From Clostridium sp. CX1 (lineage in GTDB: Bacteria; Bacillota; Clostridia; Clostridiales; Clostridiaceae): DNA of 64,000 nt. Within the stretch, counting starts at the first letter, position 1; each line of letters opens with the position of its first letter. Positions 1 to 32,684 of the stretch are shown here, in pieces. The stretch is taken from positions 248,001 to 312,000 of the forward strand of contig NZ_JAODOO010000003.1 of NCBI RefSeq assembly GCF_025398335.1, read 5' to 3'. The position numbers were made by a program, and so were the translations under genes. The notes under the pieces are model-generated. The model saw only the letters and a program-made list of their open reading frames with translations, was not told the origin of the DNA and searched no databases.

Positions 1-2210
1 GCATAAGCGAAGGTATTGTTAACCTAGATGGAGTAAACTTCTTTATATCCTTTAATGATAAGCTGCTAAATGAAAGAGAGCTTTTAAAACTAATAAATAG
101 TAGAGAAGCAGAAATAAAAGCTTTGGAAACAAAGATAAACGACAAGCGACAAAATATTGGCTTTTATGAAGAAAAAAGAAATCTGATTAAGTATTCACCT
201 TTAACACTTGAACTATACGAGGGATTAAAAAAAGAAATTAAATTGTTAGGAGATCAACTTCTAAGTTTAAGGCGAGTAGAACTTGATTTAGAGAAAAATA
301 TATTAAATATTAAAGGTGAGATAAAAAGTTATGAACAAAGAGGAAAGCTTTTAGAGAGGGGTATTGAAAAAAATAGTAATAAAGCAAAAGCTTTTAAAGA
401 ACTCATAGAAGCCTATGAAAAATATAAGAAAAATAAGAATTCCCTTAAAAGAGTTATGGAAGAATTGAGCGTATTGCAAAATCAAATTGATACAGCAGAA
501 GGTCGAAGGGACGACATAGAAAAAGAAATAACTGAGTGCAATAGTGCAATTAATAGTTATGAGAATATGGAAGGGAAACATTCAAGAGAACTTTCAAATT
601 TTAGCATTTATAAATCGGGAACTATAGTTGAAAAGGATAAAGAAGACTTAATATCTGAATATAATGCTCTGACAAAGGATATTACAAGTACAGAACAGGA
701 ATTAAAAGATAAAATAAAGGAGCTTTCTGATAAGTTTAGAGAGGTTGAAAAAGAGCTTAACTTAAAAGTTAATAAATATGAGATAAAAGAAGCTGAGTAT
801 ATTAATGAAATTTACGATATACAGAAGGAGCTGCAATTAAAAGACGAACTTCACAAAGAGAATATAAGCTATGATAATTTAAAGGATAAATACAACAGGT
901 TTATTAATGCTGCTGCTGTTGCAAAAAGCAAGTTAGATGACTTGTATATTAGCTTGAAAGATAAATTTAGTATAGAAGAACCAAAAGCTAAGAGTTTATT
1001 AATAGATAAGGATTTTAGACTGGAAATAGAAAAATTAAAATTGGAAATTAATGAAGCTAATAAGAAAAGGTCAGGGGTTAATAAATTAAAGTTAAAGATT
1101 GAAAATAATTTAAGTAGTTTAAATGAGTTTAACGATCTAAATATTTTAGCTAAGGTGGAGGTAGATATAGATTTAAAAGACTTAGATACTGCAGTTGGAA
1201 AGCTTAAAAGAGATTTAAATATTATAAGAGAGCAGGAGCTTCAGAAGGAAAAAAAGCTTACTGATTTAGTGGTTGATCTTGAAATAAAGGATGAATTTAA
1301 ATATGAAAGCCTATTTAAAGAGCCAATCCAAACACTGAAAGACCTAAAAGGAAGGCCAAAAGAGTTTAAGGAGCAGTTAAGTCTTATTGTAAATTCCTAT
1401 GAAAGTCTTATAGAAAAATTAATGGCAGATATTGAACTTATAGAAAAAGAAGAAGGAAAAATATTAGAGAGCTTGCTAGAATATATAAAAGATGTCCATG
1501 AAAATATTGAAAAAATAGATGATAACTCATCAATAACCATTGGAAGTAAGAGACTTAAGATGCTGAATATAAGTGTATCTGATTGGGAAGAAAACAAGGA
1601 AGTTTATAAGGTTAGACTAAAAGATTATATTGAACAAGTGAGAAATCAAAGTATAAATGCCTTAGAGCAAAATGAGGATATAGAAGATATTATTAGTAAT
1701 AATATCAATATAAATAAGTTATATGATGAAGTGGTTGGAATAGGAACAGTAAATATTAAATTATACAAAATAGAAGAGGATAAGCAAAAACAAATCAGCT
1801 GGGATGAGGTTTCAAAAAACTCAGGTGGAGAGGGTTTCCTTTCAGCTTTTATAATATTATCAAGTCTATTATCTTATATGAGAAAAGATGAAAGTGATGT
1901 ATTTAGCAGAAAAGAAAGTGGAAAGGTACTTATAATGGATAATCCTTTTGCTCAAACAAGTTCAGCTCACCTTTTAAAACCACTAATAGATATTGCCAAA
2001 AAGAGCAATACTCAGCTTATATGTTTAACAGGACTTGGTGGAGATTCTATATATAATAGATTTGACAATATTTATGTTTTAAATCTTATATCATCTAAGC
2101 TTAAAAGTGGAGTTAAGTATTTGAGAAGTGAACATATAAAAGGAGAAGAAGAAAGAGAAGTAATTGTTGCATCAAGATTTAAAATAGAGGAACAAATTAA
2201 GTTGTTTTAG
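1..2210 (+). CDS. SMC/Rad50-like coiled-coil ATPase, 3' part (5' end outside window)
   Basis: The frame is open to the left edge, so the TTG at 123 is not a credible start and only the last ~735 residues are visible. Most of the visible protein is Lys/Glu-rich heptad-type sequence, expected to form long coiled coils. Near the end come an ABC-type signature (NSGGEGFLSAF, around 1815-1850) and a Walker B-like stretch (GKVLIMDNPFA, around 1920-1950), followed by a D-loop-like TSSAHLLKP and an H-loop-like segment. This is the C-terminal half of an SMC/Rad50-type head; the Walker A half should lie upstream. The Walker B has Asp-Asn where Rad50/SbcC has Asp-Glu, so hydrolysis may differ. The family resembles large uncharacterised chromosome-segregation-like ATPases of Firmicutes. 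Function is unknown; genes to the left would show whether it belongs to a defence or condensin-type operon. Confidence 0.75.
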   Translation, partial: ISEGIVNLDGVNFFISFNDKLLNERELLKLINSREAEIKALETKINDKRQNIGFYEEKRNLIKYSPLTLELYEGLKKEIKLLGDQLLSLRRVELDLEKNILNIKGEIKSYEQRGKLLERGIEKNSNKAKAFKELIEAYEKYKKNKNSLKRVMEELSVLQNQIDTAEGRRDDIEKEITECNSAINSYENMEGKHSRELSNFSIYKSGTIVEKDKEDLISEYNALTKDITSTEQELKDKIKELSDKFREVEKELNLKVNKYEIKEAEYINEIYDIQKELQLKDELHKENISYDNLKDKYNRFINAAAVAKSKLDDLYISLKDKFSIEEPKAKSLLIDKDFRLEIEKLKLEINEANKKRSGVNKLKLKIENNLSSLNEFNDLNILAKVEVDIDLKDLDTAVGKLKRDLNIIREQELQKEKKLTDLVVDLEIKDEFKYESLFKEPIQTLKDLKGRPKEFKEQLSLIVNSYESLIEKLMADIELIEKEEGKILESLLEYIKDVHENIEKIDDNSSITIGSKRLKMLNISVSDWEENKEVYKVRLKDYIEQVRNQSINALEQNEDIEDIISNNININKLYDEVVGIGTVNIKLYKIEEDKQKQISWDEVSKNSGGEGFLSAFIILSSLLSYMRKDESDVFSRKESGKVLIMDNPFAQTSSAHLLKPLIDIAKKSNTQLICLTGLGGDSIYNRFDNIYVLNLISSKLKSGVKYLRSEHIKGEEEREVIVASRFKIEEQIKLF

Positions 2211-2329
2211 GAGGCTTTCTTATTGATTGGATTTTCATAATACTTATCATATAATTACCTTACTATAAGTGCATAAAATTGTATTATGGTAATAAATAAT
2301 AGTAACTTATAAGAGGAGGAGAAATTAAA

Positions 2330-3085
2330 ATGGTAACATGTAAAAATCTCTATGAAAATAAAAACATAGAAATAGTAGAGACTAGAGGAAATGTAAAGGT
2401 TCTCGAGTATAAGAAAGATTTAAGTGTAAGTGCTACAAATGCTGTGGCTGCATATTTTGCTTCAGAAATGAATGTTAGAAAGAGACAGGTTTTGATTGAA
2501 TTAAAAGATAGTGCTTATACAATTAGTGCAGGAGCAATGCAGTGGACTTCAGGGGCTGTTAGTATGGCTGCAGATGTTAAGGGGATTGGTGACTTATTTG
2601 GTAAAGCTTTATCTTCTAAGGTAACAAAAGAATCTGCAATCAAGCCTAAATATCAAGGAAATGGTTTATTAATGTTAGAGCCTACATATAAACACATTTT
2701 ACTTGAAGAGGTTTCAGAATGGGGTGGAATAGTACTAGATGATGGACTTTTTCTTGCCTGTGAATCCAAGGTTCAACAAAAGGTAGTAGCTAGAACTAAT
2801 CTTTCTTCGGCAATGATGGGAAAGGAAGGATTATTCAATTTATCTCTTAGAGGTGAAGGAATCGCTGTATTAGAGAGTCCTGTACCTAGAGATGAACTTA
2901 TAGAATTCGTACTTGAAAATGATGAAGTTAGAATTGATGGAAATTATGCCATTGCATGGTCTGATTCGCTAGATTTTAGAGTTGAAAAGTCCAGTAAAAG
3001 TTTGATTGGTTCTGCGGTTTCAGGTGAAGGTTTAGTTAATGTGTACCGTGGAACTGGAAGAATACTTATGGCACCTATAGAGTAA
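2330..3085 (+). CDS. AIM24 family protein (TIGR00266/DUF124)
   Basis: The product has 251 residues, the usual size for the AIM24 family, a beta-rich fold also found in yeast mitochondrial Aim24. Family-like features are the segment around residues 60-80 (YTISAGAMQWTSG), the central GNGLLMLEPT strand, and the C-terminal GEGLVNVYRGTGRILMAP. There is no signal peptide or membrane segment, so it should be cytoplasmic. The start is supported by GAGGAGG about 10 bases upstream. It is probably its own transcription unit, ended by the palindrome at 3143-3180. The biochemical role of bacterial AIM24 proteins is not established. Confidence 0.85.
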   Translation: MVTCKNLYENKNIEIVETRGNVKVLEYKKDLSVSATNAVAAYFASEMNVRKRQVLIELKDSAYTISAGAMQWTSGAVSMAADVKGIGDLFGKALSSKVTKESAIKPKYQGNGLLMLEPTYKHILLEEVSEWGGIVLDDGLFLACESKVQQKVVARTNLSSAMMGKEGLFNLSLRGEGIAVLESPVPRDELIEFVLENDEVRIDGNYAIAWSDSLDFRVEKSSKSLIGSAVSGEGLVNVYRGTGRILMAPIE

Positions 3086-3142
3086 GATATGTTGCAGGGG
3101 AAGGCATGTAAAATTTAATTGGTCTAAAAAAATATAAATACT

Positions 3143-3180
3143 ACTAAATAAGGTAGCTCAGCTGAGCTACCTTATTTAGT
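3143..3180. terminator. 38-bp perfect palindrome, probable terminator
   Basis: Two 19-base arms (3143-3161 and 3162-3180) are exact reverse complements with GCTCAG/CTGAGC at the centre. It lies just downstream of the AIM24 gene. The T-run is short (TTATTTAGTTT), so termination is likely but not certain. The symmetry would allow it to act in both directions. Confidence 0.6.
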
Positions 3181-3377
3181 TTGGTAAATTAACAATTCAG
3201 TAGACGCCCTTATATTTACTATCATCACGAAAAATATATTTCTCTACTAAAAATTAATAATAATTGTCTTAAGTATAAATATCACAACATAAAATAAAAT
3301 GTATGTGTTATTAACACAAAATTCATTAATCTTAAAAACAAATATCCATTTAAATCTTTATTTTAATTATAAAGGGG

Positions 3378-4766
3378 ATGAGTATCACGGAAACGGAAAA
3401 AGGAAATAGAATAATCATGGGTATCATGATTATTCTTTGGGTTTTACTTATCACGTATATGGGGACGGTGGCATATTTTACAAATCGCTTTTACTTTGGC
3501 TCTGAAATTAATGGAATCAATGTTTCTGGTAAAACTGTAGAGGAGACAAAGGAACAAATGGCTTCTAAACTACAGTCATATAGATTAAATCTAAAGGAGA
3601 GAGGTGGTAAAGAGGAAGAAATTAGAGGACCTGATATTAATTTAAAGTATAATCCGAGTAGGAGTTATAAAGAGTTCAAAGATAAACAAAATCCTTACAG
3701 GTGGGTTTTAGCACCTTTTGATAAAGAAGAATCCAAAATGGCAGAGGAACTTTCTTATGATAACAGACTATTAAAAGAAAAAATAGACAAGCTTCCTTGC
3801 TTTAACAGCAGCAATGTAGTTGAGCCTAAAAACCCTAGCTTCAAGTATGAAGATAAGGGTTATGTCATTATAAGTGAAGTGAATGGAAATAAGGTGGATA
3901 AGGATATTTTATACAGACAAATAGTAAAAGCGATATCTAAGGAGGAAACTTCGATAGATTTGGAAACAACAGATTGTTATGTTCGCCCTAAGTATACTTC
4001 TAAATCCCCTGAAATTATAAAAGTGAAAGATATTCTTAATAAGTACGTATCTTCAAAAATTACCTATGTTTTTGGAGAATCTAAAGAAACTATAGCTGGT
4101 TCAGAAATAAACAAGTGGCTTAAGATTAATGAAAACCTTGAAATTACTGTTGATGAGGAAAAAGTGAGAACCAGCTTAGAAGAGATTTTTAGTGCTTACA
4201 ACACAGTTGGTAAGTTGAGGAACTTTGTTACATCTTCAGGAAAAACAATAGATATTGATGGTGGCGATTATGGTTGGTCGATTAATATTGCCAAGGAAAT
4301 ACAGGATTTAAATACAATCATCAAAGAAGGACAAACTATAACAAAAGAACCAACATATAGCCAAACTGCTTTATCTCATAATAAAAATGGTATTGGTAAT
4401 ACCTATGTAGAAATAGATATGACAAACCAACATTTATGGTTTTATAAAAATGGCTCCCTAGTGGTACAAGGAGATATTGTTACAGGCAATATAAGCAGTA
4501 ACCACGGAACACCTAAGGGCATTTATAGACTAAAATATAAACAAGCAGATACTGTATTAAGGGGTCAGGACTATAGTTCACCTGTTAGTTTTTGGATGCC
4601 CTTTAATGGAGGTATAGGAATTCATGACGCAAACTGGAGAGGTGCTTTTGGAGGAAATATTTACAGAACAAATGGCTCTCACGGTTGTGTAAACTGCCCT
4701 TATTATCTAGCAAGGGAAATATTCTACAATATACAGGCAGGTAGTCCAGTTATTTGTTATTATTAG
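3378..4766 (+). CDS. Membrane-anchored L,D-transpeptidase (YkuD domain)
   Basis: The product is 462 residues with a short cytoplasmic N-terminus, one membrane segment (about residues 12-34), an extracellular PG-binding/VanW-like region (about 40-320) and a C-terminal YkuD catalytic domain (about 335-460). The active-site pattern is present: GIHDANW about 40 residues upstream and SHGCVNCP near the end, with Cys as the nucleophile. YkuD enzymes form 3-3 cross-links in peptidoglycan or attach proteins to it, outside the membrane. The start at 3378 has AAAGGGG directly against it, closer than usual; an ATG at 3417 with AAAAGG upstream would remove 13 residues but keep the membrane segment. The gene stands alone. 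Confidence 0.88.
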   Translation: MSITETEKGNRIIMGIMIILWVLLITYMGTVAYFTNRFYFGSEINGINVSGKTVEETKEQMASKLQSYRLNLKERGGKEEEIRGPDINLKYNPSRSYKEFKDKQNPYRWVLAPFDKEESKMAEELSYDNRLLKEKIDKLPCFNSSNVVEPKNPSFKYEDKGYVIISEVNGNKVDKDILYRQIVKAISKEETSIDLETTDCYVRPKYTSKSPEIIKVKDILNKYVSSKITYVFGESKETIAGSEINKWLKINENLEITVDEEKVRTSLEEIFSAYNTVGKLRNFVTSSGKTIDIDGGDYGWSINIAKEIQDLNTIIKEGQTITKEPTYSQTALSHNKNGIGNTYVEIDMTNQHLWFYKNGSLVVQGDIVTGNISSNHGTPKGIYRLKYKQADTVLRGQDYSSPVSFWMPFNGGIGIHDANWRGAFGGNIYRTNGSHGCVNCPYYLAREIFYNIQAGSPVICYY

Positions 4767-4799
4767 CTTAGAAAAAATTTATAATTAAAAATGATGTAG

Positions 4800-4828
4800 T
4801 TGTAAAGTTAGGAATTATTAGTTATAAT
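4800..4828 (+). promoter_or_regulatory. Promoter for the cobalamin-riboswitch transcript
   Basis: TTGTAA (4800-4805) and TATAAT (4823-4828) are separated by 17 bases, a good sigma-A arrangement. A transcript starting near 4835 would contain the whole riboswitch. A TTGACA at 4854-4859 has no good -10 at the right distance. Confidence 0.6.
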
Positions 4829-4869
4829 AATTTTATAAAGGAATATCCTTTTATTGACATAATAATATA

Positions 4870-5030
4870 GGTAGAAAAAGGTGCCTGTAAGGGAGAATAG
4901 GGAATGAGGTTGAAGCCTCAGCGGTCCCACCACTGTAAGCGGTAGAACTTTTATAATCCACTGGTTAACACTGGGAAGGAAAAAGTATCGTTAAGCCGTG
5001 AGCCAGGAGACCTGCCTTTTTCATTATTGT
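4870..5030 (+). promoter_or_regulatory. Cobalamin (B12) riboswitch
   Basis: The segment carries the conserved cobalamin aptamer signatures in order: GTGCCTGTAAGGGAGAATAG near the 5' end, CAGCGGTCCCACCACTGTAA in the core (4919-4939), a CACTG..TGGGAAGG segment near 4968-4980, and the full B12 box AGCCAGGAGACCTGCC at 5001-5016. Binding of adenosylcobalamin or a related corrinoid should favour the downstream terminator at 5070-5106 and switch off the radical SAM gene. No other gene in the window appears to be B12-related. Confidence 0.93.
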
Positions 5031-5069
5031 ATCTTAGGGAAGAGGTACTGTAGTAAGAATGATGGTAAA

Positions 5070-5106
5070 ATTCTTGAATACGAATATTCGTGTTCAAGAA
5101 TTTTTT
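5070..5106 (+). terminator. Intrinsic terminator of the B12 riboswitch expression platform
   Basis: Two 16-base arms (5070-5085 and 5086-5101) form a nearly perfect hairpin with one G-T wobble, followed by six T. It lies between the aptamer and the coding start at 5144, the position expected for transcriptional attenuation. It also means that an upstream in-frame ATG at 5090, inside the hairpin, is not the start. Confidence 0.88.
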
Positions 5107-5143
5107 GCTTTTTGTAATAAAAATTTTTGATGGGGTGATAGTT

Positions 5144-6004
5144 ATGGAAATAGTTAAAAAGTTAGTAAGCAAGGATAACTCTGTAAAATACTTATTGAAG
5201 ATGGAGGATGGTAATACTATTGAAACTTTATACATGTACGACAGCCAGTTAAAACTTACCTACCACAGCACAGTGTGTGTATCCTCTCAGGTAGGATGCA
5301 GCCAGGGATGTTTTTTCTGCGCAACAGGAAAACAAGGATTTGTGAGAAACCTTACCTCTCTTGAAATAATTGAACAGGTAGACACTTGTGTTAGCTACTG
5401 TAGAGAAATGAATTTAATCCCAATAGATGCAGTTGTTTTTGCAGGAATGGGAGAACCTCTTATGAATTATGAAAATGTTAAAGGGGCAATAGTAAATATA
5501 TATGAAAAGTATAAAATAGGTAATTTTGAAATTGCTACAGTAGGCTTGACACCAACAATAGATAAACTAATAAGTGATTTTAAAGGCAGTCCAATTAACA
5601 TAAGACTTAATCTGTCTCTTCACGCATCATCAAATGAAAGCCGTAAGCCTATAATGCCAGTTACATCAAAATATTCAATAGAGTCAATAATTGATGCAGC
5701 TGTTAAATATGCAGAAACCTTTAAAAGGAAGACAAGATTAAGATATATGATTTTTAAGGGGATAAACGACACAGAGCTTGATTTACAAAGATTAGAGGCT
5801 TTGTTAAAGGGGAAACCACTGAAGCTAATTATTTCAGCCTATAATGACAATAATATAAAGGGGTTAACTGCCCCTAAACAAAGTGAAGTAATAGATTTTT
5901 ACAATAAACTTAAAGATAAGATAGATTGTGGTATATTCCATAATTTCGGTGCGGACATTAAAGGTGGATGTGGACAGCTTAGACAGGAAAATATAGAAGA
6001 CTAA
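5144..6004 (+). CDS. RlmN/Cfr-like radical SAM enzyme lacking the N-terminal domain
   Basis: From the ATG at 5144 (GGGGTG 8 bases upstream) the protein is 286 residues, against about 345-380 for RlmN or Cfr. The missing part is the N-terminal helical RNA-binding domain; the protein begins just before the radical SAM core. The core is intact: Cys52, Cys56 and Cys59 (CSQGCFFC) bind the 4Fe-4S cluster, GMGEPL follows, and both methyl-transfer cysteines are kept, Cys45 (TVCVSSQ, equal to E. coli RlmN Cys118) and Cys276 (GGCGQL, equal to Cys355). It is therefore expected to methylate an adenine C2 or C8 by the RlmN/Cfr mechanism, but the truncation suggests a substrate other than 23S rRNA/tRNA or help from a partner. 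It sits alone behind a cobalamin riboswitch, although RlmN chemistry does not use B12. A clinical-type Cfr is unlikely because of the short N-terminus. Confidence 0.85.
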   Translation: MEIVKKLVSKDNSVKYLLKMEDGNTIETLYMYDSQLKLTYHSTVCVSSQVGCSQGCFFCATGKQGFVRNLTSLEIIEQVDTCVSYCREMNLIPIDAVVFAGMGEPLMNYENVKGAIVNIYEKYKIGNFEIATVGLTPTIDKLISDFKGSPINIRLNLSLHASSNESRKPIMPVTSKYSIESIIDAAVKYAETFKRKTRLRYMIFKGINDTELDLQRLEALLKGKPLKLIISAYNDNNIKGLTAPKQSEVIDFYNKLKDKIDCGIFHNFGADIKGGCGQLRQENIED

Positions 6005-6117
6005 GTCAACTTATATCATACTATGATATAATGTAAGTTCCAATGTAGTATACATCACAATATTATTGTGCAAATTATTCATTAAAATCTATATGTTAAC
6101 TAGAGGGTGGTTGAAGA

Positions 6118-6882
6118 ATGAAGGTTGACTTAAGTAAAATTGTTAATAATAAAAAGATAACAGCTTTAGAAGAGCAGGTACTAGAATACATAATTAATAA
6201 TATTGATTCTGTTATGGATATTGGTGTAAGAGGTGTTGCAGCTGAAAACTACACCTCTACATCTACAATCATGAGGCTTTCAAAAAAATTAGGTTTTACC
6301 GGATTTATCGATATGATTTATAATATAGCCCCTCTAGTAGACAGCAGCAATACAGGAGTTACAGAAAAATCAGAGGCATTAATAGGTACAGACATTAATT
6401 TTTTATCTAAGTATATAGAAGAAAATCACATAACAAGATTCGTAGAATTGCTATCAAAAGGAACAGGGAAGTATATTTTTATTTATGCAAGAGGATCTTC
6501 TAAAATAGCTGGAGAATATTTTAATAAAAAGCTGCTAGGCATAGGAATAAAAAGTATACTAATAGATTCTATAGGAAGCTTTGAAAGCAATCTAGAAGAT
6601 ATGGAAATGCTAATAGTAATATCAAAATCTGGGGAAACTAAAGAGGTATTAGATAAGGTTCAAGTAGCAAAAAAGAAAAATAAATTAGTTGTTTCTTTTA
6701 CAAAGGAAGTTGAAAATAGCATTTCAGTTCTTTCTGACATTTCCTTTAAGATATTTGATATGCACAAGCTAGATGACGGTAATTTATTGCCTAACTCATT
6801 TTTTGCAAATATGATTATGTTCATGGAGTACTTAATTTATAGATACTATGAAGAAACAAAAAAGGAAGATAGAAGTAAATAA
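6118..6882 (+). CDS. RpiR/MurR-family transcriptional regulator
   Basis: The protein is 254 residues with an N-terminal RpiR-type helix-turn-helix (about 5-75, including STSTIMRLSKKLGF) and a C-terminal SIS sugar-phosphate-binding domain (about 105-235, with ARGSSKIAGEYF and SKSGETKEV). It starts at an ATG with GAGGGTGG upstream. It lies directly before the alpha-glucoside PTS operon in the same direction, so it probably senses a phosphorylated sugar produced by that operon. Whether it activates or represses cannot be told; RpiR members do both. A hairpin at 6899-6931 partly separates it from the PTS genes. Confidence 0.88.
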   Translation: MKVDLSKIVNNKKITALEEQVLEYIINNIDSVMDIGVRGVAAENYTSTSTIMRLSKKLGFTGFIDMIYNIAPLVDSSNTGVTEKSEALIGTDINFLSKYIEENHITRFVELLSKGTGKYIFIYARGSSKIAGEYFNKKLLGIGIKSILIDSIGSFESNLEDMEMLIVISKSGETKEVLDKVQVAKKKNKLVVSFTKEVENSISVLSDISFKIFDMHKLDDGNLLPNSFFANMIMFMEYLIYRYYEETKKEDRSK

Positions 6883-6898
6883 ATAGTCTGATTTGAGG

Positions 6899-6931
6899 AA
6901 CCTGTTATCTTTTATGCTAACAGGTTTCTTC
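6899..6931 (+). terminator. Weak terminator-like hairpin after the RpiR gene
   Basis: AACCTGTTA (6899-6907) pairs with TAACAGGTT (6918-6926), followed by TCTTC rather than a proper T-run. It may attenuate read-through from the regulator gene into the PTS operon. Confidence 0.45.
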
Positions 6932-6945
6932 ATGTTCAAAATCCA

Positions 6946-6974
6946 TTTCGAAAATATGAAAACGTATATATAAT
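6946..6974 (+). promoter_or_regulatory. PTS operon promoter with overlapping CcpA cre-like site
   Basis: TTTCGA (6946-6951) and TATAAT (6969-6974) lie 17 bases apart. Within this span, 6956-6971 (ATGAAAACGTATATAT) matches the CcpA consensus WTGNAANCGNWWNCAW at 15 of 16 positions. CcpA bound here would block RNA polymerase, giving glucose repression of the operon. Downstream, two imperfect copies of AAAGCTGTAAAAA (from about 6975 and 7000) form a 25-base direct repeat of unknown role. Confidence 0.6.
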
Positions 6975-7038
6975 AAAGCTGTAAAAAGAATTAAGTAATC
7001 AAAGCTGTAAAAAATAAAGTAATTAAGAGGTGAAAATT

Positions 7039-8628
7039 ATGAAGGATAAGATTATGAATGCCATGCAAAGATTCTCAAAAGCTATGTTTATTCCAGTATT
7101 AATACTTCCTATAGTAGGTATACTGATAGCATTTGGAAATATATTAACAAATGCTAAGCTAGCTCAATATGCACCATTTCTAAAAAATAACTTAATATTT
7201 GGATTTGGTAAGATACTTTCTGGATCATTAGTGCCTATACTGGCTAACCTTGGAATAATATTCTGCGTAGGTTTAGCAGTAGGACTTGCAAAAGAGAAAA
7301 AGGCAGAAGCTGGTTTTACATCGGTTTTAGTTTATTTTATATTCAATAATGCTATGAATATCTTCCTTAGTTTATCAGGTAAATTAGTTCCAGTTGATAA
7401 ATTAAGAGGATCTGGTCAGGCAATGGTACTTGGAACACAAGTTCTAGACATGGGAGTTTTCTTAGGAATAATTTTAGGTATAGTTGTAGCTTATTTTCAT
7501 AACAAGTACTGTAAAAAAGAATTTAACGGGGCTTTCCAGATATATGGAGGTTCAAGACTAGTATTTTTAATACTAATTCCGGTAGTTGTTATATTAGCGG
7601 TTATACTTTCTTATGTTTGGCCAACAGTACAGCTCGGAATATCAAGCTTAGGATATTATATACAAAAGTCTGGTAACTTCGGAATATTCATGTATGGAAT
7701 GTTAGAAAGACTTTTAATTCCAACAGGATTACATCACTTAGTTTATACCCCGTTTCTATATACTCAGCTTGGAGGAATAGAAACTATAGGAGGAAAGGTT
7801 ATAGAAGGAGCAAGAAACATTTACTTTGCACAAATTGCAGATCCTTCAATCAAGGTGTTATCTAGCACAGTTATATGGGATGCTAGAGGATTATCAAAAA
7901 TGTTTGGTCTAGTAGGAGCGTGTTTAGCACTTTATCATACGGCAGATGCTGACAAGAAAAAGAAAGCTAAAGCGATACTTATTCCAGCAGCAGTAACATC
8001 AATAATAGCAGGAGTAACAGAACCTATTGAGTTCTCATTCCTGTTTACAGCACCAATATTGTTTGGAGTACACGCAGTATTAAGCGGACTTGGAATGGTT
8101 GCCTTAAATATATTAAATGTAAGAGCAATAGGGCCTAACGGACTTATAGACTTCCTATTATATAACCTGCCATTAGGTATAGCAAAAACAGGTTGGCCTA
8201 TGTTTATTCTAGTAGGTATTGCACAGTTTGCAGTTTACTACCTAATATTTAGATTCTTAATAGTTAAACTTAATTTAAAGACTACTGGAAGAGAAGACAG
8301 TACTGAAGAAGTTAAACTTTACAGCAAAAATGATTATAAAAATAAAGCAGTAGCGGAAAAAGAAACAGAAACAAAAGCTTCAGGAAATGAAGCACTTGTA
8401 ATAATAGAAGCATTAGGTGGAAAAGAAAATATCAAAAAGGTAGATAACTGTTATACAAGATTAAGATTGATTCTTGAAGATACATCAAAGGTTGACGAAA
8501 GTACATTAAAAGGAACAGGTGCAGCAGGAGTAATTAAAAAAGGTGAAAATGTTCAAGTAATTTACGGATTACAGGTAACTAGAATTAGATCTATGGTAGA
8601 TGAAGCTTTAGGAATTGTAGGAGAATAG
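7039..8628 (+). CDS. PTS alpha-glucoside transporter EIICB component
   Basis: A polytopic EIIC domain (about residues 1-400) of the glucose superfamily is joined by a charged linker to a C-terminal EIIB domain. EIIB contains the phosphorylatable Cys471 in DNCYTRLRL, the usual glucose-type signature. GITEPIEF-like sequence (GVTEPIEFSFLF) in EIIC matches the sugar-binding motif. I chose the ATG at 7039 rather than the GTG at 7030, because the GTG lies inside the ribosome site AAGAGGTG. The EIIA partner is the separate gene at 10031. Pairing with a GH4 6-phospho-alpha-glucosidase indicates import and phosphorylation of maltose-like alpha-glucosides. The exact sugar is inferred, not seen. Confidence 0.88.
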   Translation: MKDKIMNAMQRFSKAMFIPVLILPIVGILIAFGNILTNAKLAQYAPFLKNNLIFGFGKILSGSLVPILANLGIIFCVGLAVGLAKEKKAEAGFTSVLVYFIFNNAMNIFLSLSGKLVPVDKLRGSGQAMVLGTQVLDMGVFLGIILGIVVAYFHNKYCKKEFNGAFQIYGGSRLVFLILIPVVVILAVILSYVWPTVQLGISSLGYYIQKSGNFGIFMYGMLERLLIPTGLHHLVYTPFLYTQLGGIETIGGKVIEGARNIYFAQIADPSIKVLSSTVIWDARGLSKMFGLVGACLALYHTADADKKKKAKAILIPAAVTSIIAGVTEPIEFSFLFTAPILFGVHAVLSGLGMVALNILNVRAIGPNGLIDFLLYNLPLGIAKTGWPMFILVGIAQFAVYYLIFRFLIVKLNLKTTGREDSTEEVKLYSKNDYKNKAVAEKETETKASGNEALVIIEALGGKENIKKVDNCYTRLRLILEDTSKVDESTLKGTGAAGVIKKGENVQVIYGLQVTRIRSMVDEALGIVGE

Positions 8629-8677
8629 TTTTAATTTAGATAAAGTATTAGGGTAGTTGGGGAATAAAATAAATTAG

Positions 8678-10021
<1,344 letters not shown>

Positions 10022-10030
10022 AGGTTTAAT

Positions 10031-10516
10031 ATGTTTAAGAATTTATTTAAGAAAAATAAGAATAAGATATTTTATGCCTTTGCAGATGGTATAAGTGTTG
10101 ATTTAACAAAGGTTAATGACGAGGTGTTCTCACAAAAGATGATGGGAGAGGGAATTGCTATTAAACCTAGTAGTGGTGAGATATATTCTCCTTGTGATGG
10201 AACTATTGCTGCAGTTATGAAAGAAAGTAAACATGCAGTTGGCATAAGAACGGAAGATGGGGTAGAGCTTCTTATACATGTAGGAATTGATACCGTAACT
10301 TTAAAGGGTAAAGGCTTTGAACTACATTGTGAAGAGGGAAAAACCGTGAAAAAAGGTGATCTTCTTTTAAGTTTCGATAGAGAACTTATTAAAGAAAATG
10401 GATTAGAGGATACTACTATGCTAGTAATATCAGAACTTAATAACCACAAAATTGTAACTTTTAACACTGATGTGATTATGAAGGCTAAAGAAGGTATCTT
10501 GCTAGAGTATAAATAG
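10031..10516 (+). CDS. PTS EIIA component, glucose (Crr) family
   Basis: The product has 161 residues and matches EIIA-Glc throughout: the SPCDGTIAAV strand, His68 (SKHAVG) and the phosphoacceptor His83 in LLIHVGIDTV. It follows the GH4 gene by 9 bases and should carry phosphate from HPr to the EIIB domain of the 7039 gene. In Firmicutes this protein is normally fused or dedicated to one transporter, and the context supports dedication here. Confidence 0.92.
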   Translation: MFKNLFKKNKNKIFYAFADGISVDLTKVNDEVFSQKMMGEGIAIKPSSGEIYSPCDGTIAAVMKESKHAVGIRTEDGVELLIHVGIDTVTLKGKGFELHCEEGKTVKKGDLLLSFDRELIKENGLEDTTMLVISELNNHKIVTFNTDVIMKAKEGILLEYK

Positions 10517-10525
10517 ATTATTAAT

Positions 10526-10560
10526 AAAGCAAGCTTCACTATTAAGTGGAGCTTGCTTTT
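10526..10560 (+). terminator. Intra-operon hairpin between PTS and Entner-Doudoroff genes
   Basis: Fifteen-base arms (10526-10540 and 10545-10559) with one G-T wobble and a four-base loop form a strong hairpin, but only four T follow before the next ribosome site. It may be a partial terminator or an mRNA-processing or stability element that sets different levels for the two halves of the cluster. Confidence 0.6.
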
Positions 10561-10573
10561 ATAGGAGGATATT

Positions 10574-11194
10574 ATGACTATATTAGATAAGATAATTAAA
10601 AATAAAATAGTAGCTGTTATAAGAGGGAACAACAAAGAAGAAGCAGAGGGGATAATTAAGGCTGCCATCCATGGTGGCATAAAGATTGTAGAAGTTACTT
10701 ACACAAATAAGGATGCATCAGAGATTATTAAAGGCTTAGTGAATAAATATGCTGATGTAGTCATAGGTGCAGGAAGTGTTTTAAATGTAGATACTGCAAG
10801 GGAAGCAATAGAAGCAGGAGCACAGTTTATAGTAGGACCTAACTTCCACAGTTCTATTAATAAATATTGTCAGGATAAAAGAATAGACTACGTACCAGGG
10901 TGTTTCACACCAACGGAAGTAGTAAATGCCTTAAGTGAAGGCGTAGAACTTATAAAACTATTCCCAGGAGAAGTATTAGGTCCTAAATATATTAAGGCTA
11001 TAAAAGCACCTATTAAGAATGTAAGAGTAATGGTAACTGGCGGAGTTAACCTAGAAAATATTGAAGAGTGGTTAAACAGTGGAGCCGATGCATTAGGAAT
11101 AGGAAGTATACTTACTTCCGGCACAAATAATGAACATGAAAAAATCGCAGGTAAGGCAAGAAGTTTCATGGGGAAAGTTGCAGGTGACAGGTAA
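10574..11194 (+). CDS. eda: KDPG aldolase (2-dehydro-3-deoxy-phosphogluconate aldolase)
   Basis: The 206-residue TIM-barrel protein has the expected catalytic residues: Arg17 in VIRG, Glu40 in IVEVTYT, and the Schiff-base Lys128 in LIKLFPGE. It splits KDPG into pyruvate and glyceraldehyde 3-phosphate. The start has GGAGG 7 bases upstream. Its stop overlaps the start of the kinase gene by one base, so translation is probably coupled. Related 4-hydroxy-2-oxoglutarate activity is possible, but the next two genes point to sugar-acid breakdown. Confidence 0.92.
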   Translation: MTILDKIIKNKIVAVIRGNNKEEAEGIIKAAIHGGIKIVEVTYTNKDASEIIKGLVNKYADVVIGAGSVLNVDTAREAIEAGAQFIVGPNFHSSINKYCQDKRIDYVPGCFTPTEVVNALSEGVELIKLFPGEVLGPKYIKAIKAPIKNVRVMVTGGVNLENIEEWLNSGADALGIGSILTSGTNNEHEKIAGKARSFMGKVAGDR

Positions 11195-12195
11195 TGGGAA
11201 GGTTTCTTTCAATAGGTGAAATACTTGTAAGGTTTACTCCAAAGGCTTTTGATGTTTATGGTAACAATAATGAGTTTGAATATTTTTTTGGGGGGTCAGA
11301 GGCTAATATAGCTTCTACACTTTCTTATTGGGACATTGAAAGTTCAATATTATCTGCTCTTCCAGATAACACACTATCAAAAAATATAAAAAGATATTTT
11401 AGAGGGATGGGAGTAGATGTAAGCAATATAGTAACAAAGGGAGAAAAGATAGGTTTATATTTTCTAGAAAGAAGTTCAGGAGTCAGAAACAGCAGCGTTA
11501 TATATGATAGAAAACACAGCAGCTTTTCAGAACTTAAAATTGAAGACATTGATATTTCTAAGGTTTTAGAAGAAGTAACTTGGCTTCATTTTAGTGGAAT
11601 TACCCTAGCAGTAGGAGAAAACTCTAGAAATTTAGTTAGAGAAATAGTTAAAGAGGCTAAAAGGAGAAATATATTTATAAGTATAGATTTAAACTTCAGA
11701 AGTAAGATGTGCAGTGCCATAGATGCTAAAAAATATATGACAGAGTTTGCACTTTATGCTGATGTGTGCTTTGGTATAGAGCCTATAATGGTTAATGAAA
11801 AGGACACAGAGATGTTTAATAGAGAGAATTCTACTAAAGAAGATATATTTGCAAGAATGAAGGAATTAAAAAGTGAATTTCAATTTAAATATATATTTCA
11901 TACAGAGCGTAGAAATGATGAGGAAGATAACAATAGCTATTATGCCTATGGTTTAGGAGAAAACCTTCAAGAGTCAATAAAAGCAACTACTAGAATGATT
12001 GAGAGAGTGGGAAGTGGAGATGCCTTTGTAGCTGGAGTAATCTATTCATTAATGAAAGAGAAAACTTTAAAGGAAGCCTTAGATTTTGGGGTAGCATCGG
12101 CTACTTTAAAGTGCACAATAAAAGGGGACAGTATGGCAGTGGAACCTAGTGATGTAGAAAAAATAATATGCTCTAAAAATATTATAGATAGGTAG
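11194..12195 (+). CDS. kdgK: 2-dehydro-3-deoxygluconate (KDG) kinase, PfkB family
   Basis: This is a 333-residue PfkB-type carbohydrate kinase. The N-terminal GEILVRF and FGGSEANIA (residues 31-40) match the substrate-binding part of KDG kinases, and GSGDAF with catalytic Asp276 is the second PfkB signature. It overlaps the aldolase gene in a TAATG junction and is followed 9 bases later by the dehydratase. Together the three genes convert an aldonate to KDG, KDPG, then pyruvate and triose phosphate. Other 2-keto-3-deoxy sugars are possible substrates. Confidence 0.85.
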   Translation: MGRFLSIGEILVRFTPKAFDVYGNNNEFEYFFGGSEANIASTLSYWDIESSILSALPDNTLSKNIKRYFRGMGVDVSNIVTKGEKIGLYFLERSSGVRNSSVIYDRKHSSFSELKIEDIDISKVLEEVTWLHFSGITLAVGENSRNLVREIVKEAKRRNIFISIDLNFRSKMCSAIDAKKYMTEFALYADVCFGIEPIMVNEKDTEMFNRENSTKEDIFARMKELKSEFQFKYIFHTERRNDEEDNNSYYAYGLGENLQESIKATTRMIERVGSGDAFVAGVIYSLMKEKTLKEALDFGVASATLKCTIKGDSMAVEPSDVEKIICSKNIIDR

Positions 12196-12204
12196 GAGAG
12201 AAAA

Positions 12205-13920
12205 ATGTTATATTCTCAAAAGGTAAGAAAAATAGCTCCTGAAATGGATTCATTAAAAAGAGGTATGGGTTGGAATACTAAGGATCTACAAAAAATGCAA
12301 GTAATAGTTGAGAGTACTTATGGTAAAAGTCATCCAGGAAGTGCACATTTAGATGTAATAGTTAATGAAGCCATGGATGAATTAGACAGCCTAGGGGCAA
12401 AACCAGCAGATTATTATGCAACAGATATCTGTGATGGTCAAGCTCAAGGTCATGATGGAATGAATTATTCCCTTGTATCTAGAGAGATAATTGCTAATAT
12501 GATAGAAATACATGCAAATGCCACAGGCTTTGATGGAGGGGTATTTATAGCAAGTTGTGATAAAGGCATGCCGGGAAACTTAGTTGCTATGTGCAGAGTT
12601 AACATACCTTCTGTAGTTGTTCCTGGCGGAATTATGAATGCTGGGCCTAATCTTTTAACATTAAATCAAATAGGAACCTACAGTGCAATGCATAAAAGAG
12701 GAGAAATAACTAAGGAGCAATATGAGTCTTATAAAGAAAATGCGTGTCCAAGCTGTGGAGCGTGTTCGTTTATGGGAACAGCGGCTACCATGCAAGTAGT
12801 TAGCGAAGCCTTAGGCTTAGCACTTCCCGGTTCAGCGCTACTTCCAGCTACTTCAGATATATTAAAGGTTTATGCTAGAAAGTCTTCAAAGGCCCTTATA
12901 AATCTAATAGAAAAGGGAATTAAGGTATCAGATATAGTAAATAAAAAATCTATTGAAAATGCAATAATGGTCCATGCAGCTATCGGAGGATCAACTAATG
13001 CATTACTTCACATACCAGCGATTGCAAAGGAATTAGGGATAGAAATTAATCCAGAAGACTTTGATAGAATTCATAGAGAAATTCCTTTTATATTAAATGT
13101 AAGACCTAGCGGACAGTGGCCAGCTAACTATGTATTTTATGCAGGTGGAGTGCCAGCTATAATGAATAAAATAAAGAAATATCTTCATTTAGATGTACTT
13201 ACAGTAACAGGAAAGACCTTAGGAGAAGATCTAGAAGCATTTGATGCCAAAGAAACTTATGGAGAATACTTAAAATCAGCACCTAAGATGGACTACAGTG
13301 AAGTTATATACGATGCAGAAAACCCAATCAATAAAAGTGGAGCTGTATCAGTATTAAAAGGTAATATAGCTCCAGAAGGCTGTGTAGTAAAACACTCAAG
13401 TCTTCCTGCTGGAATGAAAGATATAAAACTTAAAGTTAGAGCCTTTGATTCAGAGGAAGAAGCTTTTGAAGCGGTGATAAATGGAAGTATTAAACCAGGA
13501 GATGCTATAATCATAAGATATGAAGGACCTAGGGGCTCAGGTATGCCTGAAATGTTCTATACAACAGAGGCAATAGCATCAGATGAAAAGTTAAATTCTA
13601 CAGTAGCCTTAATAACTGACGGAAGATTCTCAGGAGCAACTAGAGGACCAGCAATAGGACATGTATCACCAGAAGCAAGCAGTGGTGGTCCAATAGCCTT
13701 TGTGAAGGATGGAGATATAATTCATATAAATATAGAAGATAGAGGTATAAATATTGTAGGAATAAATGGAGAAGAAAAAGATCTAGAAGAAGTTGCCTTT
13801 ATATTAAATGAAAGAAAAAAAGATTGGAAACCAAAGGCGCCTAAATATACAAAGGGAGTACTTGGACTGTATACAAGTATGGCAACCTCAGGTATGGAAG
13901 GTGGAGTTATAAAAATATAG
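12205..13920 (+). CDS. IlvD/Edd-family dehydratase, probably sugar-acid (gluconate) dehydratase
   Basis: The 571-residue protein follows the IlvD/Edd fold with ICDGQAQGHDGMNYSL, SCDKGMPGN (Cys118) and ACPSCGACSFMGT (Cys181, Cys184, Cys187). The first of the three cysteines that usually bind the Fe-S cluster (PCN..HL in typical members) is absent: here the segment reads HPGSAHLD with Gly45. No isoleucine/valine genes are nearby, while KDG kinase and KDPG aldolase lie directly upstream, so a gluconate-type substrate fits better than dihydroxyacids. Naming it ilvD would be misleading. A non-phosphorylated gluconate dehydratase feeding KDG kinase is known from clostridia (modified Entner-Doudoroff pathway). 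Confidence 0.8.
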   Translation: MLYSQKVRKIAPEMDSLKRGMGWNTKDLQKMQVIVESTYGKSHPGSAHLDVIVNEAMDELDSLGAKPADYYATDICDGQAQGHDGMNYSLVSREIIANMIEIHANATGFDGGVFIASCDKGMPGNLVAMCRVNIPSVVVPGGIMNAGPNLLTLNQIGTYSAMHKRGEITKEQYESYKENACPSCGACSFMGTAATMQVVSEALGLALPGSALLPATSDILKVYARKSSKALINLIEKGIKVSDIVNKKSIENAIMVHAAIGGSTNALLHIPAIAKELGIEINPEDFDRIHREIPFILNVRPSGQWPANYVFYAGGVPAIMNKIKKYLHLDVLTVTGKTLGEDLEAFDAKETYGEYLKSAPKMDYSEVIYDAENPINKSGAVSVLKGNIAPEGCVVKHSSLPAGMKDIKLKVRAFDSEEEAFEAVINGSIKPGDAIIIRYEGPRGSGMPEMFYTTEAIASDEKLNSTVALITDGRFSGATRGPAIGHVSPEASSGGPIAFVKDGDIIHINIEDRGINIVGINGEEKDLEEVAFILNERKKDWKPKAPKYTKGVLGLYTSMATSGMEGGVIKI

Positions 13921-13923
13921 CTA

Positions 13924-13954
13924 GAAAAAAGCTCAGCAGATGCCGGGCTTTTTT
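13924..13954 (+). terminator. Rho-independent terminator ending the PTS/ED cluster
   Basis: AAAAAAGCTC and GGGCTTTTTT pair with one G-T, with a run of six T, directly after the dehydratase stop codon. Confidence 0.8.
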
Positions 13955-14102
13955 CATTTAGGAGATTTTTTCTAGAACCTTAACTATTTATAATAAAAAT
14001 CTTAATTAAGATCGATAATAATAAGAAGATATAAGGAATATTCATTATGTTATAATATTATTATAAGACAAAATACTACAAAAAAGGGGAGGGAGAACTT
14101 AA

Positions 14103-16136
14103 ATGCACTTATTAATGACAGTATTATTGCTGCTGCTTTGTTTACTAATTTCCAATGTAATTAGTCACTACACCCCATTTATTCCCACAGCCTTAACTCA
14201 AATAGCTCTTGGGGTAATAATTGCCCTTGTATTCAAGAATATTTCATTTCCAATAGAAACAGAATGGTTCTTGTTACTATTTGTAGCACCTCTTCTATAC
14301 AATGATGGGAGACATTTTCCTCGTGAAGAGTTGTGGAAGATGAGGTTTCCCATATTTGGAAACGCCCTTGTCCTTGTTCTTTTAACAACCCTTGGAGGAG
14401 GGTATTTTATTCATTGGATGGTACCAGATATTCCTCTTGCTGCAGCCTTTGCTTTAGCAGCTATTTTATCACCAACGGACCCTGTAGCTGTTAATGGAAT
14501 TGCAAAAAGAATTCATATTCCTGAAAGAGTATTAAACCTCGTTAGGGGAGAATCTTTAATAAATGATGCATCCGGTTTAGTTGCCTTTAATTATGCAGTA
14601 GCGGCAGTAGTAACAGGTTACTTTTCTCTACAAAAAGCAATATTTGACTTTTCTTATATGTTTCTCCTTGGAGCAGTTTTAGGATTAATACTTGGTTTGG
14701 TTGTAACATTCGTACGGTTTGCCTTGCGTAAAGAAGGAATAAATGATGTAGTATTTCATTCGTTGTTACAAGTGTTAACTCCATTTATCATCTTTATTAT
14801 TACAGAGGAACTTTTACATGCCTCTGGAGTTATTGCAGTGGTAGTAGCTGGTATTGTTCACTCATTGATAAGAGAACAAACAGAAACTATTATAGCAGAA
14901 GAGCAAGTACTTACGGAAAATATATGGTCAATTGTTTTATTTGTTTTAAATGGTATTGTATTTCTACTACTAGGACTAAACATTCCTTCATCAATGAGTG
15001 AAACGGTAGCTAATCCTAATATGGACAATTGGTTAGTTATTGGCTATGTTATTGCAATAGGATTTGTTATTTTAGGCATTCGCTTCATTTGGTCCTATGC
15101 TTTTTTCTATTATGAATATGCTCTGAAAAAAACAAAGGATGCTGAAAAGCCAAACCTGAAAACAGCATTGGTAATTAGTTTAACAGGAGTTCGTGGTACA
15201 GTTACCATGGCAGGTGTGCTGTCAATTCCTCTATTTTTGGCCAGTGGAGAGCCATTTCCAGAACACTCATTGATACTCTTTTTAGCAGCTGGTGTAATTT
15301 TATTTACATTAATAGTTGCCACAATATTTCTGCCTATCTTAAGTAAAGGTGAAACAATAGAGGGAGAAGTATTAAGTCAAATTGATTTAGGGGAGGCAAA
15401 GAGAAAGCTTTTACTAGTAGCCATTAAAAAAATTAAGTTAGAAATAAAGGAAGAAAATGAATCTGTAGCTTATGAATTAATTGATGAATATAAGATTGCA
15501 TTTCAAAAGCTCCAATCAGAACAGAGTATCACAGAAGAAGGAGCACAGCTTTACCAGCAAAGAATGAGAGAAATAAGATTAATGGCATTAAGAGCTGAAA
15601 GAAAATATATACATGAAGTAATGGACAAAAAAGGAATGGATGAAACAGTTTTTGAAACCTTTGAAAAATCTCTTGATTATAGGGAAGAAGCTTTATCAAA
15701 CAACGTCCGTTCTGAAATAATGTATCTTATAAGAAAGATGATAAGAACTTGGAAGCGTTTTAATAGTCGTTACTATAAAGATGAAGAAACTAGATTAGCT
15801 AAGTTACGTTTAGGGAAGGATATTCAATTAAAGGCTTTTGAAGCAGCTCTTAAATACTTGGAAGAGTATAAAAGAGAGCAGGAAAAATCAGATATTGTTT
15901 ATGCAGTGATTTTGGATTATAGGAGAATGATTAATCGATTGAAGCGCCGAAATACAGCATATAACGAAAAAAGCGAGGAACAAAAGGAAGAATTACGAAT
16001 TAAAATTATGGACATGGAGCGTTCAGAAATTCATCGAATGTATGAAGCAGGAGAAATTAACAGGGAAGATGCAAAGGAATTAAGAAGATATGTTAACTAT
16101 ATTGAAAGTGTTATTTTACATAAACCTGTTGAATAA
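14103..16136 (+). CDS. CPA1-family Na+/H+ antiporter with long cytoplasmic tail
   Basis: The N-terminal ~420 residues form many hydrophobic segments with the CPA1 motifs SPTDPVAV and GESLINDASGLV; the Asn-Asp pair is the ion-binding centre. The remaining ~250 residues are charged and helical, presumably a cytoplasmic regulatory tail. It exchanges Na+ (or K+) for H+ across the membrane. The start is supported by GGGAGGGAG. The gene has its own promoter region (TATAAT near 14052). Arg is often encoded by CGT, CGC, CGA or CGG (for example the RLKRR segment near 15940), while flanking genes use AGA nearly always; this suggests acquisition from a Bacillus-like donor. Confidence 0.88.
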   Translation: MHLLMTVLLLLLCLLISNVISHYTPFIPTALTQIALGVIIALVFKNISFPIETEWFLLLFVAPLLYNDGRHFPREELWKMRFPIFGNALVLVLLTTLGGGYFIHWMVPDIPLAAAFALAAILSPTDPVAVNGIAKRIHIPERVLNLVRGESLINDASGLVAFNYAVAAVVTGYFSLQKAIFDFSYMFLLGAVLGLILGLVVTFVRFALRKEGINDVVFHSLLQVLTPFIIFIITEELLHASGVIAVVVAGIVHSLIREQTETIIAEEQVLTENIWSIVLFVLNGIVFLLLGLNIPSSMSETVANPNMDNWLVIGYVIAIGFVILGIRFIWSYAFFYYEYALKKTKDAEKPNLKTALVISLTGVRGTVTMAGVLSIPLFLASGEPFPEHSLILFLAAGVILFTLIVATIFLPILSKGETIEGEVLSQIDLGEAKRKLLLVAIKKIKLEIKEENESVAYELIDEYKIAFQKLQSEQSITEEGAQLYQQRMREIRLMALRAERKYIHEVMDKKGMDETVFETFEKSLDYREEALSNNVRSEIMYLIRKMIRTWKRFNSRYYKDEETRLAKLRLGKDIQLKAFEAALKYLEEYKREQEKSDIVYAVILDYRRMINRLKRRNTAYNEKSEEQKEELRIKIMDMERSEIHRMYEAGEINREDAKELRRYVNYIESVILHKPVE

Positions 16137-16195: not shown

Positions 16196-16720
16196 ATGGA
16201 GGAATATATTATAGCAGTTGATGAAAATGATAAAGAGTTAGGTCCTATAGAAAAGATGGAAGCTCATGAAAAAGGGGTACTACATAGAGCCTTTTCCATA
16301 TTCATCTTTAATTCCAAGGATCAATTACTATTACAAAAAAGATATAGTGGAAAATATCATTCGGGGGGACTTTGGACCAATACTTGCTGCAGTCACCCCC
16401 GATACAAGGAAAAGCTAGAAGAAGCAATATACAGAAGGCTTAAGGAGGAAATGGGATTTACCTGTGAACTTACCAAGCTATTTAGCTTTTGTTACAAGGT
16501 AAATTTTGAAAATAGCCTTACTGAAAACGAATATGATCATGTTTTTATTGGAACCTATGACGGTGAAATAGTTCCAAATGAAAATGAGGTTGAAGATTAT
16601 AAATGGATTGATATTGATGAAGTTAAGCGTGATATCAAAAACAATGGTCATTTATATACCTTCTGGTTTAAATCTGTGCTTGATAAGGTTATCGAATCAT
16701 ATTACTTAAGTAAAGAATAA
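16196..16720 (+). CDS. idi: Isopentenyl-diphosphate delta-isomerase type 1
   Basis: The 174-residue Nudix-fold protein has the type 1 IDI signatures: the catalytic Cys in TNTCCSHP (about residue 65), the Nudix helix EEAIYRRLKEEMGF, and the catalytic Glu in ENEYDHVF. It interconverts IPP and DMAPP for polyprenol synthesis. Type 1 is the eukaryote/enterobacterial form and is not essential where the MEP pathway supplies both isomers. The ribosome site is AAGGAGAAGG. Its 3' end overlaps the convergent peptidase gene by 19 bases. Confidence 0.93.
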   Translation: MEEYIIAVDENDKELGPIEKMEAHEKGVLHRAFSIFIFNSKDQLLLQKRYSGKYHSGGLWTNTCCSHPRYKEKLEEAIYRRLKEEMGFTCELTKLFSFCYKVNFENSLTENEYDHVFIGTYDGEIVPNENEVEDYKWIDIDEVKRDIKNNGHLYTFWFKSVLDKVIESYYLSKE

Positions 16721-32502: not shown

Positions 32503-32518
32503 ACTCCATATCATACAA

Positions 32519-32593: not shown

Positions 32594-32684
32594 TGTTTTA
32601 GGATAAGCATCGCTCCTAGGGTATATCTAAGATTTAGGCATACCTTAGGGGGGAGACGGATTTTAATCTGATTATCTGGAACTC

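Follow-up and report, generated by a model that had tools for sequence, protein, structure and literature searches.

RlmN, the C2-methyltransferase of 23S rRNA A2503 and tRNA A37 (TIGR00048), and Cfr, which methylates C8 of 23S rRNA A2503, are the closest described relatives of a shortened protein encoded in the window, the whole stretch of 64,000 nucleotides from Clostridium sp. CX1 that was analysed here. With RlmN the short protein shares the radical SAM fold, the CX3CX2C motif and the equivalents of E105, C118 and C355, and RlmN is its best database and structure match. Unlike RlmN, it is without the RlmN_N domain, reaches 207.8 bits with TIGR00048, under the cut-off of 290, has several RNA, ribose and phosphate contacts replaced, and belongs to a separate clade of short proteins (branch support 100/100) with a B12 riboswitch ahead of the gene in six of nine cases. 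With Cfr it shares the class A chemistry residues common to both enzymes, and Phe occupies the position of Cfr F330 in all nine short proteins; it differs in its scores with the Cfr models (135.5 of 550 bits with TIGR04432, 144.9 of 530 with NF000424 and 133.6 of 468 with NF011024), so that RlmN (C2) scoring beats Cfr (C8), and in lacking the HhH2 N-terminal domain, Tyr97, Asn288 and Arg327. Nothing in the analysis of the short proteins suggests drug resistance.

In its control region the locus resembles the cobalamin-riboswitch attenuators of cbi, cob and btu genes, in which an RF00174 aptamer is likewise followed by an intrinsic terminator, but the gene controlled here is an RlmN-like methyl synthase. 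The role proposed below, supply of a base under end-product repression, is like that of the lower-ligand genes bluB and bzaA-F, from which the short gene differs in enzyme family and in its proposed purine product. Cobamide structure decides which microbes use which B12 variant, and in the excerpted text of one survey the cobamide form is predictable for only 58% of producers, ligands being predicted from benzimidazole and phenolic signature genes and the remaining producers perhaps making purinyl cobamides (PMC6461909).

The riboswitch, terminator and gene

The features of the locus, in window coordinates, are listed here; genomes that have the short gene are called carriers.

4798..6000 (+), block common to C. 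peptidivorans, C. sp. BSD9I1 and C. pascui (blastn, 79% DNA identity)
4800..4828 (+), candidate sigma-70-type promoter, TTGTAA-17-TATAAT (consensus scan, 10 of 12 matches)
4862..5033 (+), cobalamin riboswitch aptamer RF00174 (cmscan, 106 bits; likewise in 5 of 8 other carriers)
5055..5075 (+), candidate antiterminator, AAGAAT at 5055-5060 with ATTCTT at 5070-5075 (pairing judged by eye)
5067..5114 (+), intrinsic terminator, 17-bp stem at 5067-5104 and T-rich tail (hairpin scan, folding)
5132..5139 (+), ribosome-binding site GGGGTGAT (by eye)
5144..6004 (+), short RlmN-like radical SAM gene, 286 aa (TIGR00048, PF04055, 6fz6, Foldseek)
5222-5224, 5276-5278, 5297-5299 (+), catalytic codons of E27, C45 and C52
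5309-5311, 5318-5320, 5969-5971 (+), catalytic codons of C56, C59 and C276

The aptamer is full-length (model positions 1-189 of 189), scores 106 bits (E 1.6e-25; the gathering score is 31.5), and is followed by a terminator platform before the gene. Terminator-like sites numbered three in 1.5 kb, compared with a mean of 0.6 in shuffles, and the two calls remaining beside the leader terminator are one 5-pair minus-strand site within the gene; region 5020-5146 folds with a z of -4.25. By eye, ATTCTT at 5070-5075 overlaps the 5' arm of the terminator, and the words AAGAAT and ATTCTT recur in the leaders of the three Clostridium relatives (loci L039, L040 and L041). The promoter at 4800..4828 is suggestive only, because the sigma-70-type consensus scan gave 11 sites per 1.5 kb where 7.5 are expected. 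All six aptamer-bearing leaders have a hairpin and then a U-run between aptamer and start codon, and in one of them (G475) the sequence of these elements is quite different from the others. The riboswitch, terminator and gene are a single unit, presumably repressed by cobamide. This bears out a sequence-only reading of the locus, which had joined the B12 aptamer, a terminator (here a 17-pair hairpin with a T-rich tail) and the gene at 5144 into one attenuation unit; the bounds of 4800..6004 that it gave are refined to 4798-6000 by the block conserved with relatives.

A shortened RlmN-like enzyme

The start codon is the ATG at 5144 and the open reading frame ends at 6004. The frame measures 308 aa from stop to stop and therefore has no room for an N-terminal domain of about 60-70 aa, which rules out a wrong start codon masking such a domain. 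PF04055 is the sole Pfam domain of the short protein, and RlmN_N (PF21016) was absent from all nine short proteins in a domain search; on domain content, as on the TIGR00048 score, the protein stands outside the RlmN family. It matches RlmN 6fz6 in the PDB (E 1.2e-37), and an AlphaFold model built with the nine-sequence alignment (pLDDT 81.5) has RlmN 6fz6, 5hr7 and 3rfa as its best Foldseek matches, the model serving for the fold only, since its quality is poor at the cluster loop (51-66) and the C-terminus (274-286).

The residues that define a class A radical SAM methylase are all present, namely the CX3CX2C cluster cysteines C52, C56 and C59, the methyl-carrying C276, the resolving C45 and the general-base E27, the last three equivalent to C355, C118 and E105 of E. 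coli RlmN. All six are invariant in 9/9 short and 41/41 full-length proteins. The shortened RlmN/Cfr-like enzyme that had been recognised from the sequence, with its cluster and methyl-transfer cysteines in place and its N-terminal domain missing, is thus confirmed. The genome has its own full-length RlmN elsewhere (C67:91836-92639, with PF21016 at 8e-18), so that the short gene is not its only RlmN and is, as had been anticipated, a second copy.

An ordinary RlmN is ruled out by the separate full-length copy, by the distinctness of the short clade and by its rebuilt contacts. A fragment or pseudogene is likewise ruled out, the catalytic set being invariant in nine genomes of six families (labelled f1, f24, f65, f77, f218 and f220 by the tool) and the eight other short copies being 56-79% identical to the window protein.

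Distribution and association with the riboswitch

A scan of named genomes found the short gene in C. peptidivorans, C. sp. BSD9I1 and C. pascui, with proteins 76-79% identical to that of the window, and in all three RF00174 ends about 110 bases before the gene. Profile searches, made on groups that overlap and are samples, gave four carriers among 206 genomes of the window's family (E<=1e-55) and four in the order of G475 (58 genomes, E<=1e-60). In a class sample of 391 genomes eight matches reached E<=1e-50, three of them with a short open frame (G304, G475 and the window's own genome, G000), and in a phylum sample of 398 genomes G000 alone was short, the 13 other matches having frames of at least 351 aa; profile searches of three further small genome groups gave no new carriers. 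The nine carriers are G000, G025, G143, G144, G475, G304, G988, G998 and G1006. The short proteins form one clade in a tree with 41 full-length proteins; this tree and the conservation counts exclude 6 of 47 candidate full-length loci that failed a motif filter (L017, L019, L035, L047, L048 and L050).

RF00174 lies just upstream of the short gene in six of the nine carriers (G000, G025, G143, G144, G475 and G998). In G304, G988 and G1006 no RF00174 was found at the gene even with a relaxed search, nor any other known riboswitch in the leaders (E up to 0.5); a single sub-threshold riboswitch match, at L045, is on the opposite strand. The leader folds of these three are unremarkable (z -0.41, -1.51 and -0.32, respectively). 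Shortly before the start codon in G988 (L069, ~9322-9440, -) there is a GC-rich hairpin with a T-run, without RF00174, which may be another attenuator, its fold not being significant (z -1.51).

For comparison, 20 of the 41 full-length rlmN loci were searched with flanks of about 1.5 kb, and neither RF00174 nor any other Rfam match was found at any of them (0/20). The proposal that the short architecture recurs behind RF00174 in relatives thus holds in six of nine carriers, against none of the 20 controls. No published link between RlmN and a cobalamin riboswitch was found, in agreement with the sequence-only reading, in a search that most subscription papers lay outside. In the flanks read, mostly by eye, no cobamide-synthesis gene was seen adjoining the short gene; the nearest B12-related gene, 4.3 kb downstream of it in C. 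peptidivorans, is a stand-alone open reading frame with a match to the MetH activation domain PF02965 (L039:11221-11889, +).

Conservation and possible mobility of the block

When window positions 1-16000 were compared with L039, L040 and L041 (about 12.9 kb each; blastn, E limit 1e-5), no DNA similarity was found outside 4798-6000. The conserved block of about 1.2 kb runs from the promoter region through the riboswitch to the gene end. Between G000 and G025 the short protein is 79.6% identical, compared with 67.4% for full-length RlmN and 66.7% for CobT, and a search of six more species of the window's genus found no short gene, although their CobT proteins are 73-75% identical to that of G000. 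Together with the confinement of DNA similarity to the block, the closer match of the short protein and its absence from genus-mates point to a self-contained cassette that has either moved horizontally or been strongly constrained. Cargo of a known mobile element was rejected, the matching plasmid records (247) and phage records (45) all being below 60% identity, with no close relative among either. A pattern scan confirmed no short gene on viral contigs.

Substrate contacts

The contacts of Cfr with rRNA, taken from part of a preprint (PMC13001441), were transferred onto the short clade through alignments. Five Cfr side chains bond the target sugar or phosphate in that structure: Tyr97 (to the 5'-O of the target adenosine), Ser103, Ser153, Asn288 (to the phosphate) and Arg327 (to the 4'-O). 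Arg184 touches neighbouring bases, and Met95 is in van der Waals contact with the target adenosine (PMC13001441).

The Ser153 contact is not common to Cfr and RlmN, because this column is Val in 41/41 RlmN (as in 9/9 short proteins). Three of the four sugar or phosphate side-chain contacts common to both enzymes are replaced in all nine short proteins. The Tyr97 column has Tyr in 36/41 full-length RlmN and Asp in 9/9 short proteins; that of Asn288 has Asn in 41/41 and, in the short proteins, Ile (8/9) or Val (1/9); and that of Arg327 has Arg in 41/41 and Phe in 9/9. The fourth, Ser103, is kept as Thr in 9/9. Arg184 is Arg in 41/41 full-length proteins and in 1/9 short ones, and the N-terminal contacts Arg25 and Gln28 (40/41 and 41/41 full-length) are deleted with the domain. 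Met95 is retained in 9/9. Just before C276 the window protein reads F-H-N-F where the genome's own RlmN reads R-R-E-M. Some contact changes are expected by drift alone, because 33 of the 103 columns that are at least 85% conserved in full-length RlmN are kept in at most one short protein, 55 being kept in at least eight of the nine.

Since Met95 and the catalytic set are kept and the N-terminal domain and most contacts are lost, the enzyme looks apt to bind and methylate an adenine ring and not to grip the RNA context of RlmN and Cfr, and on these residues a free adenine base or nucleotide is a more likely substrate than RNA. A specialised RNA methyltransferase, which would methylate adenosine C2 (or C8) in a particular RNA, e.g., a tRNA, and tune translation or expression when cobamide is scarce, is rather unlikely. 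Its nearest homologues, RlmN and Cfr, do act on RNA, binding of a short RNA loop might not need an accessory domain, and the short clade gains the conserved basic residues R154, R198, R200, K224 and K227; against this, the RNA-binding domain and most of the compared ribose, phosphate and RNA contacts are gone, the nine short proteins have a net charge near zero (-3 to +4), and both carriers checked (G000 and G025) already have a full-length RlmN. It had been suggested from the sequence that the enzyme might modify an RNA linked to B12 supply. The B12-supply part of that suggestion is probable, but the case for an RNA target is weakened by the missing RNA-binding domain and by the substitutions at conserved RNA-contact positions in the short clade.

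Cobamide genes and the other cobalamin riboswitches

With the window copy, the genome has six RF00174 copies, among them the following.

G000:C71:91775-91965 and 92408-92590 (L076:15776-15966 and 16409-16591), tandem cobalamin riboswitches in a double leader
G000:C4:114288-114462 (L075:2289-2463), orphan cobalamin riboswitch, 120.8 bits, the genome's best score

The tandem pair stands before cbiQ, an ABC ATPase gene, cbiM and cbiN. Another copy precedes a BtuF/BtuCD-like ABC uptake operon that adjoins cobU and cobS and whose best curated B12 match, BtuF, is under the cut-off, and another precedes a single-strand cluster with cobyric acid synthase, cbiB, cobB, cobT and cbiD, which also holds a cobD-like gene under the cut-off. 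Of the other five cobalamin riboswitches, four thus stand ahead of genes for cobamide synthesis or uptake, the exception being the orphan, so that B12 control in this genome marks supply genes. At the orphan, a 70-aa open reading frame overlaps the aptamer, followed by a terminator-like hairpin (by eye), a short open reading frame and then a gene on the other strand, with no notable gene behind.

CobT and ThiC were searched for in 80 genomes, the nine carriers and 71 others picked with complete ones favoured. Nucleotide-loop assembly appears available, CobT (PF02277) being found in 9/9 carriers (the G988 copy is a piece at a contig end) and CobS and CobU in G000; the CobT count is weak evidence because CobT is common in the background (64/71). 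No residue of CobT convincingly marks the carriers when these nine are compared with 44 others, the best column having p 4e-4 over 356 columns and its commonest residue occurring in 4/9 carriers. On the CobT tree the carriers are scattered (6 changes, with 6 of 500 shuffles as low).

BluB needs oxygen. No carrier has a second ThiC-family gene over the cut-off, the count per carrier being 0 or 1 (0 in G000, G025, G475 and G988). Because no carrier has more than one such gene the ThiC-like enzymes BzaA/B/F, and with them the anaerobic benzimidazole (bza) pathway, are not apparent, and a purine ligand is therefore the expected default; a second ThiC-family gene is equally absent from 70/71 background genomes, G022 having a second, divergent one (two adjacent pieces in G001, seemingly one gene, were counted as one). 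In G000 the ThiC match is sub-threshold only, and 6/6 other species of the genus in the set have ThiC (one with an in-frame stop).

A proposed role in cobamide supply

The explanation that fits best, and that is put forward tentatively, is that the short protein is a dedicated 2-methyladenine (or 2-methyl nucleotide) synthase supplying a cobamide lower ligand. It is favoured because the cobalamin riboswitches of the genome guard synthesis and uptake, and because the C2 chemistry of RlmN yields 2-methyladenine. From this we infer cobamide repression, C2 chemistry, the identity of the substrate and the use of the product as a lower ligand, in the following scheme. When cobamide is scarce the antiterminated transcript would be made, and when cobamide occupies the aptamer the terminator would form and transcription would stop. 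In class A (RlmN-type) chemistry C276 would take up the methyl of SAM, which a 5'-deoxyadenosyl radical would activate for addition to adenine C2, with C45 helping release. The substrate would be adenine, as the free base or as an (alpha- or beta-) nucleotide, and not rRNA or tRNA. CobT and CobS would then use the 2-methyladenine or its nucleotide as lower ligand, giving 2-methyladeninylcobamide (Factor A).

Some observations count against a supply enzyme: three of the nine carriers have no riboswitch at the gene, no cobamide-synthesis gene was seen beside it in the flanks read, the Ser103 contact is kept as Thr, and the clade gains conserved basic residues. In addition, Clostridium cochlearium is said to make Factor A, a finding attributed to Hoffmann and colleagues in 2000. 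In E. coli supplied with cobinamide only, Factor A forms by default together with pseudo-B12, according to part of one report (PMC9426567), which shows 2-methyladenine to be a real lower ligand and in this respect favours the proposal. As both organisms make Factor A, RNA turnover may suffice as a source of 2-methyladenine. Cobalamin riboswitches answer to several corrinoids; for 2-methyladeninylcobamide the aptamer of E. coli btuB has an affinity 3.2-fold lower than for cobalamin (PMC9600662, in excerpt).

Methylation elsewhere in cobamide metabolism, i.e., of a different heteroaromatic ligand, of a corrinoid intermediate, or in the remodelling of salvaged cobamides, is unlikely. The class A enzymes RlmN and Cfr both act on adenine C2 or C8 (PMC9692996, in excerpt), and the short clade retains its catalytic set and the Met that contacts the adenosine, although the regulatory evidence is identical to that for a supply enzyme and the rebuilt stretch before C276 leaves room for an acceptor other than adenine. 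End-product repression of a supply enzyme is also simpler than the replacement or bypass of a B12-dependent step that had been suggested from the sequence, because the four other gene-bearing riboswitches serve cobamide synthesis and uptake, and that suggestion is set aside. A B12-independent substitute made when B12 is short is very improbable: such isozymes stand under cobalamin riboswitches in other organisms, but in this genome no such isozyme was seen behind any of the five further cobalamin riboswitches, the carriers have cobamide-assembly capacity of their own (CobT in 9/9), and no B12-dependent step is known to us for which RlmN-type chemistry could stand in.

For the 2-methyladenine synthase, the fuller picture would be of an RlmN-type enzyme working off RNA, making the Factor A ligand under cobamide control and moving among Clostridia as a promoter-riboswitch-gene cassette, which as a whole is possible but somewhat doubtful. 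If true, an RNA-modifying radical enzyme would have been recruited to small-molecule metabolism by shedding its RNA-binding domain, and, among class A radical SAM methylases, would be to our knowledge the first to act on a small molecule. The gene would likewise be the first, as far as we know, dedicated to a methylated-purine cobamide ligand; tagged by its riboswitch it could serve as a marker for 2-methyladenine, and the origin of Factor A would become directly testable.

Neighbouring genes

Downstream of the short gene, window positions 6118-13920 (+) hold ordinary-looking sugar-utilisation genes, the first encoding an RpiR-type regulator (SIS, HTH_6) and the following ones being, by eye, PTS-like, glycosidase-like, aldolase-like, kinase-like and dehydratase-like. 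A second riboswitch and two genes behind it are found farther along the window.

32504-32605 (+), RF00167 purine riboswitch (84 bits), upstream of both genes below
32804-34147, permease-like gene (by eye)
34131-34703, phosphoribosyltransferase-like gene (by eye)

These two genes, named by eye, are probably a xanthine/uracil permease gene and xpt.
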